64,000 nt of DNA from an uncultured Granulosicoccaceae bacterium (GTDB lineage: Bacteria > Pseudomonadota > Gammaproteobacteria > Granulosicoccales > Granulosicoccaceae). Below the pieces are notes generated by a model. The model was not told the origin of the DNA. It did not search any database and saw only the letters and a list, made by a program, of their open reading frames with translations. Of this stretch, positions 46,204-55,961 are shown piece by piece. Every line of letters starts with the position of its first letter. The stretch's first letter is position 1. The position numbers and the translations under genes are program-made. The stretch spans positions 1 through 64,000 of the forward strand of contig CALAJN010000014.1 in assembly GCA_937922675.1 (NCBI GenBank), in the 5' to 3' direction.

Positions 46204-46299
46204 TCGATGGTCTGTGTGACAACCTTGGAGAGGGTTGGCACTTGAGGAGCAAGGCACGCAGACCATCGAAAGAAGGGAACCACAACATCCGTGGGGAAC
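46204..46299 (+). promoter_or_regulatory. Structured flagellin mRNA leader with AGGA-loop hairpin (putative CsrA target)
   Basis: A 15-bp stem with one G-U pair joins TCGATGGTCTGTGTG (46204-46218) to CACGCAGACCATCGA (46255-46269). Inside it are CAACC-TTGGAGAG-GGTTG (46220-46237) and CTTG-AGGAG-CAAG (46241-46253), both with GGA in the loop, the form CsrA prefers. Two further GGA sites follow, one in AAGGGAACC and one in the ribosome site GTGGGGAAC. The AGGA hairpin and the two later motifs recur in the second flagellin leader. Confidence 0.6.
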
Positions 46300-46304
46300 T
46301 CAAA

Positions 46305-47126
46305 ATGGCACAGACCATCAACACCAACGTGAATACGTTGGTCGCTCAGAGGAACTTGAATAGTTCTCAGGGCGCAGTATCAACAGCTATCGAAAGACTG
46401 TCATCCGGCTTACGTGTTAACAGCGCAAAGGATGACGCTGCAGGCCTTGCAATCGCTGAGCGTATGGATGCACAGGTGCGCGGCATGACCGTTGCCACAC
46501 GTAACGCCAACGATGGCATCTCTCTCGCTCAAACGGCTGAAGGCGGTTTGAACGAAGCAAGTAACATGATGCAACGTATGCGTGAGCTTGCAGTACAGTC
46601 GGCGAACGCGACCAATACAGCCGCAGACCGTGCAAACCTGGATGCAGAATTCCAGCAGCTCGGCGAAGAAATCGGCCGATCCACCGGCGTTACCCAGTTC
46701 AATGGACTCAATGTTCTGGCAGGTGATGCAGGTGACTTTGTTTTTCAGGTCGGCGCCAACGGTGGTGAAACACTTACGATCTCTACTGTCGATATAGGGG
46801 GCGATGCCGATGTAGCAGCCGTTACCGGTACCGACATCACCGATGCAACCAACGCAACAGCGGCGATTGACCTCATTGACACTGCAATCGATACGATTAC
46901 CACCGAACGCGCCAAGTACGGTGCGGTTCAAAGTCGATTCGAGAGCACGATCAACAATCTGCAGGTCGGTATCGAGACACAGACTGCAGCTCGAGGCCGG
47001 ATTGTAGATGCTGACTTCGCTGTGGAAACAGCCGCCATGACACGCGCTCAGATCCTCCAGCAAGCAGGTACTGCTATGGTGTCGCAGGCAAACTCTGCGC
47101 CACAATCAGTGCTGTCCTTGCTATAA
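46305..47126 (+). CDS. fliC: Flagellin (first copy)
   Basis: A short flagellin of 273 residues starting MAQTINTNVNTLVAQRNLNS. The N-terminal D0/D1 region has RLSSGLRVNSAKDDAAGLAI and NDGISLAQTAEGGLNEASNM, the C-terminal D0 region QILQQAGTAMVSQANSAPQS. The variable domain is only about 80 residues, so the filament surface is minimal. The ATG at 46305 is preceded by GGGGA eight bases away. The frame is open 21 codons upstream, but these cover the leader hairpin. It is about 300 bases from a close paralogue. Confidence 0.96.
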   Translation: MAQTINTNVNTLVAQRNLNSSQGAVSTAIERLSSGLRVNSAKDDAAGLAIAERMDAQVRGMTVATRNANDGISLAQTAEGGLNEASNMMQRMRELAVQSANATNTAADRANLDAEFQQLGEEIGRSTGVTQFNGLNVLAGDAGDFVFQVGANGGETLTISTVDIGGDADVAAVTGTDITDATNATAAIDLIDTAIDTITTERAKYGAVQSRFESTINNLQVGIETQTAARGRIVDADFAVETAAMTRAQILQQAGTAMVSQANSAPQSVLSLL

Positions 47127-47425: not shown

Positions 47426-48250
47426 ATGGCACAGACCATCAATACCAACGTTAATTCGTTGGTTGCACAACGCAACCTGGCTAGAAACCAGGTTGATATC
47501 GCGACCTCTATAAACCGACTGTCCTCCGGCTTGCGCGTCAACAGCGCCAAGGACGATGCCGCTGGCCTCGCTATTGCCGAGCGAATGGACGCTCAAGTGC
47601 GTGGCATGAACGTCGCAATGCGCAATGCCAACGACGGCATCTCGCTTGCGCAAACCGCAGAATCCGGCTTGAATGAGGCCGGCAACATGCTGCAACGGAT
47701 GCGAGAACTCGCTGTTCAGTCTGCCAACGGCACCAACAGTGCAGCCGACAGGGCCAATCTCGATGCCGAATATCAAGCACTGGATGACGAGATCGTTCGT
47801 ATCGCCAACGTCACGCAGTTCAACGGCGTCAACATTCTTCAGGGTGGAGCTGGAACCTTTTCCTTTCAGGTAGGTGCCAACTCAGGAGAAACTCTGGATA
47901 TCACTACCATCGACATGACAACAGATCCAATCACAGGCACATTGAACACCAGTGCCGTGGATACAGATGTCAATGCTGTCGCTGCCCTTGATGCAATTGA
48001 CGCAGCTATTGATCTGGTAACAACAGAGCGTGCTAAATATGGTGCATCTCAATCACGTTTCGAAAGCACCATAAACAATCTGCAGATGGGTGTTGAATCT
48101 CAAGCAGCAGCTCGTGGCCGAATCGTTGATGCAGATTTTGCTATCGAAACAGCTGCAATGACACGCGCACAGATCCTTCAGCAGGCCGGTAGTGCGATGG
48201 TTTCTCAAGCAAACCAGGCACCGCAGAGCGTTCTGTCTCTGTTGGGTTAA
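47426..48250 (+). CDS. fliC: Flagellin (second copy)
   Basis: A 274-residue flagellin, MAQTINTNVNSLVAQRNLAR at the start and MVSQANQAPQSVLSLLG at the end. It is nearly the same as the first copy in the D0/D1 regions and differs in the short central domain (AVDTDVNAVAALDAIDAAID versus TNATAAIDLIDTAIDTI). The pair is a tandem duplication in which promoter and leader elements were kept. The filament may mix both or one may dominate. Confidence 0.96.
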   Translation: MAQTINTNVNSLVAQRNLARNQVDIATSINRLSSGLRVNSAKDDAAGLAIAERMDAQVRGMNVAMRNANDGISLAQTAESGLNEAGNMLQRMRELAVQSANGTNSAADRANLDAEYQALDDEIVRIANVTQFNGVNILQGGAGTFSFQVGANSGETLDITTIDMTTDPITGTLNTSAVDTDVNAVAALDAIDAAIDLVTTERAKYGASQSRFESTINNLQMGVESQAAARGRIVDADFAIETAAMTRAQILQQAGSAMVSQANQAPQSVLSLLG

Positions 48251-50332: not shown

Positions 50333-50659
50333 ATGCTCAACGCCAACGCAACGCACGCCGAGTCGTCAACTACAGATACCGATGGTGCACCGATGTTCAT
50401 GCCGGAGGATCTGGTTGCGGGCCTGGTGCCGGCTTTTCAGGACTCGATCAGTGGTGAGACTCACCTGGCGCGTCACAACAACGGCGAAATTGCACAGTTA
50501 CACACCTTCACGCTCCTGCCCGACGCGTGGATAGCGGAGCGTGATGCGAAGGGAAATGCTATTGCCCTGTACCCGACAATAGTCGCTGGCTACTGGCAAT
50601 GTGCACGCTTTGTATCTGTCGAAGAACTGCTGGTTCAGACCTGGAAGGGCTTGAGCTAG
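50333..50659 (+). CDS. Unknown 108-residue protein at the end of the fliDST operon
   Basis: I do not recognise it. It starts three bases after the fliT-like stop, with GGAAG at a suitable distance. The sequence has no membrane segment or signal. FMPEDLVAGLVPAFQDSISG is followed by HLARHNNGEIAQLHTFTLLP, DAWIAERDAKGNAIALYPTI and YWQCARFVSVEELLVQTWKG, a mixed alpha/beta pattern. The tight packing and lack of an overlapping gene support that it is real. It converges with pomB two bases later. A flagellar assembly or regulatory role is suggested only by position. Confidence 0.65.
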   Translation: MLNANATHAESSTTDTDGAPMFMPEDLVAGLVPAFQDSISGETHLARHNNGEIAQLHTFTLLPDAWIAERDAKGNAIALYPTIVAGYWQCARFVSVEELLVQTWKGLS

Positions 50660-50661
50660 CT

Positions 50662-51480
50662 CTAGTAGCCGTCTATCCCGTAACCGATCTGAATTTCCAC
50701 GCGTCGGTTGCGCGCTCGATTCTCAGGAGAATCGTTTGGCACCAACGGTCTCGTGTCAGCATAGGCGCGGATCTCGATCTGATCAGGATTAGCAAGCCTT
50801 GCTTCGGCCAACTCATGCACTACAGAGGCAGCACGCGCCGAAGACAATACCCAGTTCGACGGATAGACCGGCGTGCTGATGGGCACATCATCGCTATGAC
50901 CTGACACAACGACCTTCGCGTTGACATCGCTCAGCACCTCAGCGAGTGTCTCAAGCACGGGTATGAAGCCAGGCTGTATATCTGCTGTACCCGAAGGAAA
51001 CGCATCATCTTCCTTGACTCTGACCAGAACGCCATAGTCGTAGGGAATGAACTCAAGCGTCTCATTGTTGATCTCATCCTTGAGTCCTTCACGGACACGC
51101 TCTATCAGGGCCTCGATTTCAGCGGGGGTCACAGGTACAGGCATAGCCGGCTCAGGGCGGCTAATTGGCTTGGTGTCATCATGTGTCTGCTGACGCACGG
51201 ACTTGATAATCGAGGGATCTGGCCTGCCGGGGCTGAATTCCTTTTTGATAATACTCTCCGCCTTGGGAATCTGGTCCGCTTTGATATCACGCTGCACACC
51301 AAAGGCAAATTTCATCGATCCGGCTACCTGTTTGTACTTCTGCAGGTCCATTTCAGAAAACGACAGCAGTAGTACAAAAAAGCACATCAACAGACTCATC
51401 AAGTCTGCAAACGTCGCCATCCATGCAGGCGCGCCCTCTTCGACTTCCTCTTCGGGCGGGCCGTCGTCCTGGTCACTCAT
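50662..51480 (-). CDS. pomB: Flagellar stator protein PomB/MotB
   Basis: A 272-residue inner-membrane protein with one N-terminal helix (WMATFADLMSLLMCFFVLLL) containing the ion-carrying aspartate (Asp26), then a plug/linker and a C-terminal OmpA-like peptidoglycan-binding domain (GHSDDVPISTPVYPSNWVLS, then RAYADTRPLVPNDSPENRAR). The FADLMSLLMCFFVLLLSFSE stretch is of the sodium-type PomB. It anchors the stator to the cell wall. It follows pomA by five bases and is the last gene of the minus-strand flagellar run. Confidence 0.92.
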   Translation of the reverse strand: MSDQDDGPPEEEVEEGAPAWMATFADLMSLLMCFFVLLLSFSEMDLQKYKQVAGSMKFAFGVQRDIKADQIPKAESIIKKEFSPGRPDPSIIKSVRQQTHDDTKPISRPEPAMPVPVTPAEIEALIERVREGLKDEINNETLEFIPYDYGVLVRVKEDDAFPSGTADIQPGFIPVLETLAEVLSDVNAKVVVSGHSDDVPISTPVYPSNWVLSSARAASVVHELAEARLANPDQIEIRAYADTRPLVPNDSPENRARNRRVEIQIGYGIDGY

Positions 51481-51485
51481 GGTGA

Positions 51486-52250
51486 CTAGGCGTCCTTCAT
51501 GGCAGCTTCGCGCTGATTCTCAGGCAAATAGGTCGTCAGCAGTTGACGAAGCACCCGTGGGTTCACCCCTTCCTGAATGCCAGACACCGACTCCAAAGCA
51601 AGTAGCTTGTTCAGTCGCTCAGTCTCACTGATCGCTTTTAGCTTGGCCGCAATCGGTAGCGCAATGGCATTAGCGATCACTGCACCGTAGAGAGTGGTTA
51701 AAAGAGCAACCGCCATAGCCGGTCCGATTGACTTGGGATCATCCATATTGGCAAGCATCTGTACCAGACCGATCAGGGTGCCAATCATGCCCATGGCAGG
51801 TGATGCCTCAGCAATGGACTTGAACATACGGATACCCATCATCTGGCGTTCAAGCTCCAGATTGATGTCCTTTGACAGCATGCGACTGACGATCTCGGTT
51901 GGGTGCCCGTCGATACAGAGTTTTACGCCGCTATCAAGAAACGCATCGCTGACTTCTTTTCCCTCCAGCGCAAGGATGCCTTCCTTACGCGCAACATCTG
52001 CAAGCTCAATCGCTTCTTCAATGAGTTTCTCAGGCGGCGTGGAGCTATGCATGAACGCTCGAATGCCAACCTTGAACGAACCGAGGAACTGTCCGAGTGA
52101 GATCTGAGCCAGTGTCACCATCATGGTGCCACCGATAACGACTGTGAGACTGGGTATGTTGACAAAGGTGCTCACGCTACCACCGAGAAATATCGATGAC
52201 GCGATAACCCCGAGACCGCCAATCAATCCAAGTAGTGTTGCGATATCCAT
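51486..52250 (-). CDS. pomA: Flagellar stator protein PomA/MotA
   Basis: A 254-residue membrane protein with four helices. MDIATLLGLIGGLGVIASSI is close to the opening of Vibrio PomA, and MGIRMFKSIAEASPAMGMIG with TLIGLVQMLANMDDPKSIGP and the VALLTTLYGAVIANAIALPI helix form the channel wall. With PomB it should form a sodium-driven stator pentamer-dimer. The gene starts four bases after flhF, an unusual neighbour for it. Confidence 0.93.
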   Translation of the reverse strand: MDIATLLGLIGGLGVIASSIFLGGSVSTFVNIPSLTVVIGGTMMVTLAQISLGQFLGSFKVGIRAFMHSSTPPEKLIEEAIELADVARKEGILALEGKEVSDAFLDSGVKLCIDGHPTEIVSRMLSKDINLELERQMMGIRMFKSIAEASPAMGMIGTLIGLVQMLANMDDPKSIGPAMAVALLTTLYGAVIANAIALPIAAKLKAISETERLNKLLALESVSGIQEGVNPRVLRQLLTTYLPENQREAAMKDA

Positions 52251-52254
52251 GACG

Positions 52255-53862
52255 TCAGCCTATTTCTGCGTCAGCAGTGGCATCCAGACGCATACCATTA
52301 GCATCAGGCAGATTGCACGACACATCCTGGCGTGTAGGACGCATGAGGTTAAGTTGACAAATTTCATCGGCGCTGGCAGTGAACCTGCGTGCCGTTGCCA
52401 TTGCAGTAGCTACCAGAATCGATGCGTCAGCACGCTGCAAGGACACCGCTGTGTCTGCAGAATCTGACCAGTAGGCAATCGGCACGTGTTGTCGAATCAG
52501 CGGGGCAAAACAGGACCCAAGCCGAGCAGCACTGTCCAGTTGAGTCAAGATGAGATTGCTCACACCGTTCTCGCGGTGCAGGCCAGCCTGAGCCTCCAAG
52601 GAACAAGCCTGCATCGTCGCTGACAACACCAGCAAATGACGCAGCTTGCGCGAATCGTCAGCGGCAAGCGCTGGCAATGAAAATGCCTCTGGGTGATCCA
52701 ATGGCATGTGGTCAACAAGCACCAGAGACTTGTTGGCGAATGCGCCGACAAGATTGGCCAGCTCACGTGAGTCACGCGCTTGTACAACAGGAACACCAAG
52801 ATGGCCACCGTGAAACTGAAGTGATTCGAACGCAACGCCGCCACGTGTATCAGCAGAAATCAGCACGAGAGAATCTGCCCCGTTGAGTTCGATCTGTCGA
52901 CGAGCCAGCTTGAGCAACGAGGTGGTCTTGCCACTACCGGCGGGGCCTGACACGACGGTAACGCCAGGCTCCGTCGTGCTGTTGTCTATACCAATTGGCA
53001 AACTGGCCGCCAGCAGCGAGAGCGATTGACGAATAGCGGTTTCGGTGGTGTCGTTTGGGCCGAGCCTTTCCACCAGACGTACAGCGAGCTCTGCGCCAAT
53101 GCCAATCTTCAACAGTTGCTCGATGTGTGCATTTTTCAAGGGCTCAAGCTCACCCCAGAGATTGGCCTCAAGCCGCTGCAGGCGTTGTTCAATGCGCCCG
53201 ATGGCAGCAAACTGCTCTGCTCCTGTATCAGCCTCTTGAGGTGTGTCCGCCGATACCGAGGCATCCACCTCTTGAGACGGTTTGACATCGCGCTTACCAC
53301 CATCGGTCTGCGTGTTATGGCCTCTCGACTGACTGTCGATGCTCACCAGAGTCTCCAGCTGCGGCGCAAGATCATCGTCTACCGTGACGCGTACCGTGGA
53401 TTTTTCCGATAAGGGCTCAACAACTGACTCGACGGTGGCCTGCACTACAGCGCCAGCAGCGCAGGCGGATTCGGTTGTGGGTACATCCACCGCAGTCTTT
53501 TCAGTAGCAGGAGCCTCCTCGGCCTCAACTGAGCTTTCACCTGGGGTCACATTTGGAAAAACAGCGGAGGACACAACAGCTGAGGCGGGCTCAGCTGAGC
53601 TCGGTTCAACGACGACGGGTTCAACGCCAGTGGAGTCATCGACAGCGGGCTTCGCGGCGGCGGGCTGTTCACGCAGTGCATCTACCGCATCATCAAGCAC
53701 AGCAGATGCGAGAGTGTCGTCGTCTATATAACCTGTGGCGATCATCTCCACATGATCATCGACTTGTCGATTGGACAGGATTACCGCGTCATCGCCAAAG
53801 GCTCGACGAATAGCATCCAAGGCCAAAGGTGCGCTGTCTGCCTGAAATCGTCTCAGTTGCAT
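52255..53862 (-). CDS. flhF: FlhF-like SRP-family protein with degenerate GTPase motifs
   Basis: The 535-residue protein starts like FlhF (MQLRRFQADSAPLALDAIRR with FGDDAVILSNRQVDDHVEMI), has a long acidic Ala/Val/Glu/Ser linker to about residue 200 and a C-terminal NG-type domain. The P-loop GPAGSGKTTSLLKLA is intact. The other motifs are not: DxxRIGAxEQL reads DTRGGVAFESL, the G3 DTAG reads DHMP (LVDHMPLDHPEA), and TKLD reads TQLD. FlhF recruits the first flagellar parts to the pole, and its GTPase is needed for dimer formation. GTP turnover by this protein is doubtful. No flhG follows. It lies directly before pomA and after flhA. Confidence 0.85.
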   Translation of the reverse strand: MQLRRFQADSAPLALDAIRRAFGDDAVILSNRQVDDHVEMIATGYIDDDTLASAVLDDAVDALREQPAAAKPAVDDSTGVEPVVVEPSSAEPASAVVSSAVFPNVTPGESSVEAEEAPATEKTAVDVPTTESACAAGAVVQATVESVVEPLSEKSTVRVTVDDDLAPQLETLVSIDSQSRGHNTQTDGGKRDVKPSQEVDASVSADTPQEADTGAEQFAAIGRIEQRLQRLEANLWGELEPLKNAHIEQLLKIGIGAELAVRLVERLGPNDTTETAIRQSLSLLAASLPIGIDNSTTEPGVTVVSGPAGSGKTTSLLKLARRQIELNGADSLVLISADTRGGVAFESLQFHGGHLGVPVVQARDSRELANLVGAFANKSLVLVDHMPLDHPEAFSLPALAADDSRKLRHLLVLSATMQACSLEAQAGLHRENGVSNLILTQLDSAARLGSCFAPLIRQHVPIAYWSDSADTAVSLQRADASILVATAMATARRFTASADEICQLNLMRPTRQDVSCNLPDANGMRLDATADAEIG

Positions 53863-53888: not shown

Positions 53889-55961
53889 TCAAGCGAGCGC
53901 TGGTGCATCACCGCCGATATTGGCAATGACTTTCAGGCGCTTGGTTTCGGCTATTTCGTTGTAGGCCAGCACTTTGAGTAGTGGCACGGTTTGACGAATC
54001 AGTGCCGCCAATGGGGGCCTGAGTGCAGGGTTGACGAGCAACACCGCGGGTTCGCCATTGACGTCCTGACGCCTGACACTGTCTGCCAGGGATTCATGCA
54101 GACGCTCGGCAAGGCCAGGCTCGATACCAAGGCCGCCTGAGCCACCGGTTTCGACTGACTTCAGGCACAGCTGCTCGAGTTCAGCGTCCAGGGTGATGAC
54201 AGGCAAAGTCTCTGAGAAGCCGTTGAGCTCGGATGTGATCAGACGGCGCAGCGCAACCCGCACAGCTGCTGTCAACTCAACCACATCGGTTGTGTTGGCG
54301 CCCCTTTCTGCAAGGGTTTCAGCAATGGTGCGCAGGTCACGCAGGGGGATACCTTCCTCAAGCAGGTTCTGCATCACCTTGACTACGACTGGCAGGGCCA
54401 GAGACTTCGGCACGAGATCCTCCACTAAACGGGGTGCGCTCTTCGCCAGCACATCGAGTAGCTCCTGCACCTCCTGGTGACCGAGCAAGCTACCCGCGTG
54501 CTGTTGAACTAGCTTTGAGAGGTGAGTCGCGATTACCGTGCCTGCGTCGACCACCGTGTAACCTGTTGCACGGGCCCGCTCGGCCATGCCAGGCTCAATC
54601 CAGACAGCCTCCATACCGTAGGCCGGGTCGTTGGTGGCGATACCCGGCAGACTGCCGAGCCCAAGGCCACCCATGGCGAGCTCGCGGTCGGGGTAGATAT
54701 CAGCCTCACCCTCGACGACACCGAGTATCTTGATACGGTAACGCGTCGGCTCGAGGTCAAGATTGTCGCGAATGTGCACCGGCGCCACCAGAAAGCCGAG
54801 TTGCTCTGTGAGCTTCCTGCGCACCGCGCGTATCCGATCCGGCAGTTTTCCACCGCGATTGGTATCCACCAAGGCGATAAGGCCGTATCCCACTTCCAGA
54901 TCCAACATGCCAGTGGGTACAACGTCCGACCACTCAAGCTCTCGAGTCTTGGCGTCCTCAGGTGCTACCTCGGGCTCGCTGTCATCCGCAGCATCGGCCG
55001 TTGTCGTGCGCTTCCAGGCAAAAATCGCAAGACCCGCTCCCAGTGTCAAAAACACCAGGTTGGGCATGCCGGGTATCAGACCCAGCGCCAACACCACACC
55101 CGCAGTCACACTCAAGGCCCGACGGTCATCAAACAACTGGGCAGAGATCTCGTGCGACATATCCTCGGTGGCCGACACTCTGGTGACGATAACCGCAGTT
55201 CCCATGGACAACAACAAGGAGGGGATCTGTGCTACCAGACCATCACCAATGGTCAACAACGTGTAGTTGTGTACCGCGGTATCAAAGCTCAATCCATGTT
55301 GCCCCATGCCAATGGCAAACCCGCCGGCAATGTTGATAAACAGAACCAGCAAGCCCGCTATCGCATCCCCTTTGACAAACTTGCTCGCACCGTCCATCGA
55401 GCCGTAGAAATCCGCTTCTCGAGCGATGTCAGCCCGGCGTTCTCCAGCCGCTTTTTGATCCAGAAGACCCGCATTCAAGTCGGCGTCTATGGCCATCTGC
55501 TTACCCGGCATGGCATCGAGCACAAATCGCGCACTGACCTCAGACACGCGCCCGGCACCTTTGGTGACAACAACAAAGTTGATGATTACCAAAATGGCGA
55601 AGACAACCAGACCAACCGCATAGTTGCCACCGACAACAAAATCGCCAAAGGACTCGATAACAGCTCCCGCAGACGCAGTCCCTGTATGTCCTTCAAGCAA
55701 GACAATCCGGGTTGAGGCGACGTTTAGTGACAGACGCATCATGGTTGCGCCAAGCAGAACGGTAGGAAAGGCGGAGAACTCCAGCGGACGCGGCGTGTAC
55801 ACCGTCATCAGCAGCACTATCAAGGACAGAGCAATATTGAACGTGAACAGAAAATCCAGACCCAGCGGTGGCACTGGTAAAACCATCATCACCAGCATGA
55901 GCAGGATCAGCAGAGGCGTACCCAGGCCTGCGGTCCTCAACTCATCAAACAAGGATTTCAT
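53889..55961 (-). CDS. flhA: Flagellar export gate protein FlhA
   Basis: A 690-residue protein with about eight N-terminal membrane helices (LLILLMLVMMVLPVPPLGLD, FNIALSLIVLLMTVYTPRPL) and a large cytoplasmic domain (FLVAPVHIRDNLDLEPTRYR, GVEIAT-like region, VLTHLSE-like TVIATHLSKLVQQHAGSLLG). The conserved FHIPEP-region equivalent lies in EVSARFVLDAMPGKQMAIDA with DLNAGLL. It forms the nonameric ring that receives chaperone-substrate complexes. Its start overlaps the flhB stop by four bases. Confidence 0.96.
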   Translation of the reverse strand: MKSLFDELRTAGLGTPLLILLMLVMMVLPVPPLGLDFLFTFNIALSLIVLLMTVYTPRPLEFSAFPTVLLGATMMRLSLNVASTRIVLLEGHTGTASAGAVIESFGDFVVGGNYAVGLVVFAILVIINFVVVTKGAGRVSEVSARFVLDAMPGKQMAIDADLNAGLLDQKAAGERRADIAREADFYGSMDGASKFVKGDAIAGLLVLFINIAGGFAIGMGQHGLSFDTAVHNYTLLTIGDGLVAQIPSLLLSMGTAVIVTRVSATEDMSHEISAQLFDDRRALSVTAGVVLALGLIPGMPNLVFLTLGAGLAIFAWKRTTTADAADDSEPEVAPEDAKTRELEWSDVVPTGMLDLEVGYGLIALVDTNRGGKLPDRIRAVRRKLTEQLGFLVAPVHIRDNLDLEPTRYRIKILGVVEGEADIYPDRELAMGGLGLGSLPGIATNDPAYGMEAVWIEPGMAERARATGYTVVDAGTVIATHLSKLVQQHAGSLLGHQEVQELLDVLAKSAPRLVEDLVPKSLALPVVVKVMQNLLEEGIPLRDLRTIAETLAERGANTTDVVELTAAVRVALRRLITSELNGFSETLPVITLDAELEQLCLKSVETGGSGGLGIEPGLAERLHESLADSVRRQDVNGEPAVLLVNPALRPPLAALIRQTVPLLKVLAYNEIAETKRLKVIANIGGDAPALA

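Follow-up and report, generated by a model that had tools for sequence, protein, structure and literature searches.

An FlhF ortholog with lost GTPase motifs across the genus Granulosicoccus

In other bacteria FlhF acts as an on/off GTPase switch that, together with FlhG, sets the number and the place of polar flagella. The need for GTP hydrolysis by FlhF has been debated from point mutants, and the results conflict between species. In Shewanella FlhF interacts with FliG through its FliG-interaction domain (FID) and with HubP through its NG domain (PMC11236974), the latter contact being GTP-independent (PMC12713375). In Vibrio alginolyticus the exchanges T306A, D439A, T436M and E440K abolish flagella and K437A reduces flagellation; the G380A mutant retains flagella and shows increased polarity, and R334A abolishes GTPase activity while flagella stay normal (PMC6092412). 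GTPase activity is also lost in R251G of Pseudomonas aeruginosa (PMC6092412). Here, we describe an FlhF from an uncultured bacterium of the marine family Granulosicoccaceae, encoded in a contig stretch of 64,000 nucleotides (the window), in which several of these positions are naturally altered.

The flhF reading frame is open throughout and lies between flhA and pomA (Table 1). The NCBIfam FlhF models match its product with E-values of 2e-39 to 6e-38 and Pfam SRP54 does so at E 8e-16, while the score against the TIGR03499 equivalog model (131.5 bits, E 5.9e-38) stays below the cut-off of 174.15 bits. We modelled the protein with AlphaFold2 on the basis of a 45-row alignment, and alignment, model and fold comparison agree on an architecture of FID, linker and SRP-type NG domain. 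The pLDDT of the NG domain is mostly above 90, falling to about 75 in the loop after G3 (residues 391-410). The best match among solved structures is FlhF of Shewanella putrefaciens (8r9r; Z 26.9 over 249 residues, 3.0 A, VIA-align), and Bacillus subtilis FlhF (2px3) also superimposes well on the model. The flhA-flhF order of the window recurs in the loci of the genus that were read. By position, architecture and fold the window protein is an FlhF ortholog, although it lacks the catalytic features of the family. A second flhF, sought in the rest of the window genome, was not found; the strong SRP-GTPases there are FtsY, Ffh and the window FlhF only. The FID has a lower column entropy in the genus than in the outgroups and is predicted, by analogy with the Shewanella system, to bind FliG (PMC11236974).

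Table 1. Coordinates of flhF, its domains and motifs, and the adjoining genes in the window
Feature	Position	Strand	Remarks
flhA	53889..55961	-	TIGR01398 820 bits, above cut-off
flhF	52255..53862	-	535 aa, SRP-type NG domain, lost G3/G4/G5; ORF call, profile matches, fold
FliG-interaction domain (FID), residues 1-45	53728..53862	-	beta-alpha-beta-beta, pLDDT mostly 94-97
Low-complexity disordered linker, residues 65-202	53256..53670	-	pLDDT mostly <55; high dN
NG domain, residues 240-493	52384..53145	-	VIA-align Z 26.9 to FlhF 8r9r, 23.9 to 2px3
G1 P-loop GPAGSGKTT, residues 306-314, intact	52921..52947	-	canonical row GPTGVGKTT
G2/catalytic box ADTRGGVAFESL, residues 337-348	52819..52854	-	Arg341 -> Gly, catalytic Gln (of EQL) -> Ser
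G3 LVDHMP, residues 382-387	52702..52719	-	Asp384 kept, Gly -> Pro387; canonical LIDTAG
G4 LTQLDS, residues 439-444	52531..52548	-	Thr/Asp kept, Lys -> Gln, Glu -> Ser; canonical LTKLDE
G5 SDSADTAVSL, residues 466-475, lost	52438..52467	-	canonical SDGQxVPEDL (SDGQRVPEDL in canonical row)
flhF/pomA junction, 4 nt	52251..52254	-	fipA (DUF2802) sits here in relatives
pomA stator gene	51486..52250	-	PomA model 337.8 bits; MotA_ExbB
pomB stator gene	50662..51480	-	MotB family 317 bits, above cut-off

From a complete G1-G5 set the window protein has kept G1, while the G3 Gly, the G4 Lys, the G5 GQ and the catalytic Arg and Gln are gone. The initial annotation, made from the sequence alone, had read the P-loop as intact, DTAG as replaced by DHMP, TKLD as replaced by TQLD and the arginine of the DxxRIGAxEQL box as missing. 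Motif reading and alignment bear out each of these points, the box being ADTRGGVAFESL in the window and TDNYRIGAHEHL in the canonical row; the loss of G5 (GQxVPxD) had been overlooked. The 45-row alignment, the AlphaFold2 model and the fold comparison to 8r9r rule out that the motifs are shifted rather than lost. A sequencing error or a pseudogene private to this genome is likewise ruled out, since relatives throughout the clade share the loss and the window gene has an open frame.

The clade-wide view comes from a census of 13 full-length FlhF proteins of the genus Granulosicoccus against 77 outgroup FlhF. A scan of contigs with the window protein alone gave no relative, because its sequence is too diverged, and an alignment-based scan succeeded; the named relatives identify the genus as Granulosicoccus. 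Most outgroup loci were located via FID peptides (seven via a TIGR03499 search), and hence the census of NG motifs is unbiased by that search pattern. The G3 Gly, the G4 Lys, the Glu that follows it and the G5 Gly are each found in none of the 13 genus proteins and in all 77 of the outgroup; the G5 Gln occurs in 2/13, both without the Gly, against 77/77. Motif loss in the genus is not chance (0/13 vs 77/77). The P-loop residues G306, G311, K312 and T313, the next Lys and the Asp of both G3 and G4 occur in every protein of both sets, and the G4 Thr in all 13 and in 74 of the 77 (Ser in the others). Twelve of the 13 genus rows keep the catalytic Arg, Gly occurring in the window only, and the position of the catalytic Gln is E or S across the whole genus. 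The replacements are themselves regular: D-H stands in G3 in 11/13 rows, T-[NH]-LD in G4 in 12/13, and D384, T440 and D443 are invariant. With V. alginolyticus numbering placed by motif spacing and not read from a Vibrio row, the equivalents of G299, G304, K305, T306, K311, D377, T436 and D439 are kept in 13/13, and the window protein has lost both G380 and R334 (the latter to Gly) and is changed at K437 and E440.

Elsewhere in the family the picture is graded. Two genomes of one genus (g6) retain DSAG/DCAG and TKLD/TKTD; in two others (g4 and g5) G3 reads DTPA, DTSA, DTEA, DQSS or DTPS and G4 is mixed; one genome outside the family has DTGS in G3. Thus, the erosion is partly family-wide and complete in the genus of the window. 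The partly degenerate GTPase motifs at loci L010 (G044), L023 (G030), L182-L184 and L197, from other genera of the family and one other family, are possibly intermediate steps.

Close genus pairs have dN/dS values of 0.028-0.050 in the NG domain and 0.015-0.053 in the FID; these values cover genus pairs other than the window lineage, where dS is saturated and no relative is near enough. The NG domain of the genus is under strong purifying selection. The genus stem measures 0.82 changes per site for FlhF-NG and 0.25 for FlhA+FlhB+FliP; within the genus the FlhF-NG/core distance ratio is 1.2-2.0, with the window at 1.26-1.52 and thus no faster than its relatives. This history looks like a burst on the stem followed by renewed constraint, not decay.

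Downstream of flhF the profile matches confirm pomA and pomB as the next genes, as had been read before. The gene order of the genus is flhA-flhF-fipA-pomA-pomB followed by a PilZ protein gene, and fipA has this place in G014 and G023, among others. Hence pomAB beside flhF is the genus order minus fipA and not a sign of rearrangement, and since both genes normally follow flhF-fipA, their place is uninformative about flhG. PF10975 (fipA) has no match in the window genome (G000) nor in G005 and is present in most flagellate relatives. FipA has been described in all species that use FlhF/FlhG for polar flagella (PMC11236974), so that its absence here is another departure. The tree gives weak support for the order in which the window, G005 and the remaining members branched, and one fipA loss is therefore indistinguishable from two. 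A FimV/HubP landmark is encoded in the genome (FimV core, TIGR03505 above cut-off, G000:C7:36784-37002). Some further features of the flagellar region were observed. The PilZ-domain gene, located 3' of pomB in relatives (L127 12014-12610, L128 2599-3174), was not found there in the window (50660-52255). A small conserved gene (108 aa) at 50333-50659 (+), after fliT, has no Pfam or NCBIfam match and also adjoins flagellar genes at L127 (12889-13194), L128 (2255-2575) and L130 (12977-13294). Two adjacent flagellin genes lie at 46242-47126 and 47426-48250 (+) of the window, and the G023 locus (L127) has three that begin with the same MAQTINTNV sequence.

The initial annotation had further proposed that FlhF has no FlhG partner, and this part did not stand. 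A search of the window genome with a profile built from six canonical FlhG sequences found one FlhG homologue on a contig other than that of flhF (G000:C9:226577-227398, also listed as 226547-227446 = L162 9548-10447; 230.8 bits, E 2.3e-68), flanked by a FleQ-domain sigma54 activator and a FliA-type sigma factor. Absence of flhG from the genome is thereby ruled out. The sole other match above threshold was a MinD-type protein (76 bits). Among the ParA-fold matches, L040 and L041 (G000:C4) are by eye BchL- and BchX-like ATPases, which suggests aerobic anoxygenic phototrophy, a trait reportedly found in kelp Granulosicoccus. The N-terminal activating helix DQAxxLR is absent from every family FlhG that was read. 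The FlhG of the window genome reads KGGVGTS at Walker A and DAGFAQGGVA in the Walker A' region, and thus the ATP-binding Lys of KGGxGK[ST], a motif that serves ATP-dependent dimerisation, is lost. The FlhG of the other flagellate members read has KGG[VI]GKS, which confines the loss among the flagellate members read to the window genome; the non-flagellate G002, G003, G009 and G021 have lost the Lys too. About 20 family genomes, some of them incomplete assemblies, carry FlhG without flagellar FlhA, and FlhG may therefore serve a non-flagellar use there, for which partnership with FleQ would be the obvious candidate. In G015, G016, G019-G023, G057, G061 and G068, FlhA-like matches of 400-610 bits lie well below the FlhA cut-off; these may belong to non-flagellar type III secretion systems, as their export gates. 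In Pseudomonas, FleN has no DQAxxLR either and coexists with an FlhF that has GTPase activity (PMC12713375), and hence helix loss by itself is not decisive.

How might such an FlhF work? On the sequence evidence we think it reasonably probable that the protein is a hydrolysis-dead, probably nucleotide-binding scaffold linking FliG with a polar landmark and lacking an off switch. FlhF in the flagellar operon would have become a pseudo-GTPase on the stem of its genus. Its FID would still recruit FliG and, via FliG, FliF, its NG domain would still dock on a landmark such as FimV/HubP, and nascent basal bodies would be tethered to a site in this way. Nucleotide is probably still held via the P-loop, the G3 Asp and the G4 Thr/Asp, possibly as a structural ligand. 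Hydrolysis and switching off would be precluded by loss of the DxxG Gly, the G4 Lys/Glu, the G5 GQ and the catalytic Gln, in the window species also of the Arg, and by an FlhG that has no activating helix. The remaining role of FlhG would most likely be transcriptional (FleQ/FliA), in the window species presumably without normal ATP binding. Without an off switch, each site would be expected to bear several flagella (tufts). For Granulosicoccus antarcticus, another species than that of the window, motility by "numerous tufts of flagella" has been reported (PMC9238374), which would be consistent with this loss. The earlier proposal of nucleotide binding without cycling, or of a scaffold, is the best-supported reading and is strengthened by the genus-wide loss, by the purifying selection and by the kept residues, among them those whose mutation abolishes flagellation in V. 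alginolyticus (PMC6092412). Against the scaffold, motif loss is no proof of hydrolysis loss, and the missing fipA weakens the polar-docking step. The main objection is that K437 and E440, at which exchanges reduce or abolish flagellation in Vibrio, are changed here, and compensation must therefore exist. A stronger version for the window species, with FlhF and FlhG both catalytically dead, FipA gone and a complete-looking flagellar cluster kept, would have placement rely on a static scaffold free of any nucleotide cycle and flagellar number on FleQ/FliA transcription only; this we put forward tentatively, as possible.

The same data can be read in other ways. An active NTPase with re-invented motifs, in which Asn, His or Gln stands in for the G4 Lys and a conserved DHTLP-like loop for DTAG, possibly with changed nucleotide specificity, would explain why the replacements are conserved and D384, T440 and D443 invariant, and most genus members do keep the catalytic Arg. 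However, the DxxG Gly, the catalytic Gln, the G5 GQ and the activating Gln helix of FlhG are all absent together, in the window the Arg too, and we regard such an enzyme as unlikely. Quite improbable, in our judgement, is a decaying remnant, its switch useless and its gene drifting to loss. The extra damage in this genome (R341G, FlhG without the Walker A Lys, no fipA match) would fit, as would relative G003, which has a similarly degenerate FlhG and no flagellar FlhA; but the 535-aa frame is intact between its neighbours, the FlhF-NG/core ratio lies within the genus range, and the FID, like the P-loop, G3 Asp and G4 Thr/Asp, has been conserved. As for an FlhF operating without any FlhG in the genome, flhG is indeed not beside flhF, yet the fleQ-flhG-fliA cluster refutes this notion and leaves it next to no probability.

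A motif-dead FlhF conserved across a genus is a natural version of the hydrolysis-mutant experiment. If flagella are still placed, FlhF is essentially a tether, and GTPase and FlhG would form a means of counting that is dispensable in some lineages, tufts replacing one flagellum. A literature search, mostly without subscription papers, returned no mention of FlhF together with Granulosicoccus and no naturally GTPase-dead FlhF. The FlhF of Granulosicoccus offers a good natural test of the purpose of GTP hydrolysis in this family.

The window FlhF shares with those of S. putrefaciens, V. alginolyticus and P. aeruginosa the FID, linker and NG fold, the position after flhA, the P-loop, the G3 Asp and the G4 Thr/Asp. 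It differs from them in having no G3 Gly, G4 Lys/Glu, G5 GQ and catalytic Gln, in the window species also no catalytic Arg, and in scoring below the TIGR03499 cut-off. With B. subtilis FlhF (2px0/2px3/3syn) the NG fold is held in common (Z 23.9). That protein is a GTP-bound homodimer stimulated by the DQAxxLR helix of FlhG, whereas the catalytic elements are absent here. The FlhG of the window species and Pseudomonas FleN/FlhG are alike MinD-type proteins without this helix (PMC12713375). In the window species, however, KGGVGTS and DAGFAQGGVA replace KGGVGKT and DADLGLANVD, and flhG lies with fleQ and fliA, distant from flhF. Further parallels are the laboratory mutants G380A and R334A of V. 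alginolyticus and R251G of P. aeruginosa, which are altered at the same positions as the window FlhF, R251G being the same change as Arg341 to Gly. In contrast to these mutants, the changes in Granulosicoccus are natural and combined, and their G3/G4/G5 part is conserved across the genus.
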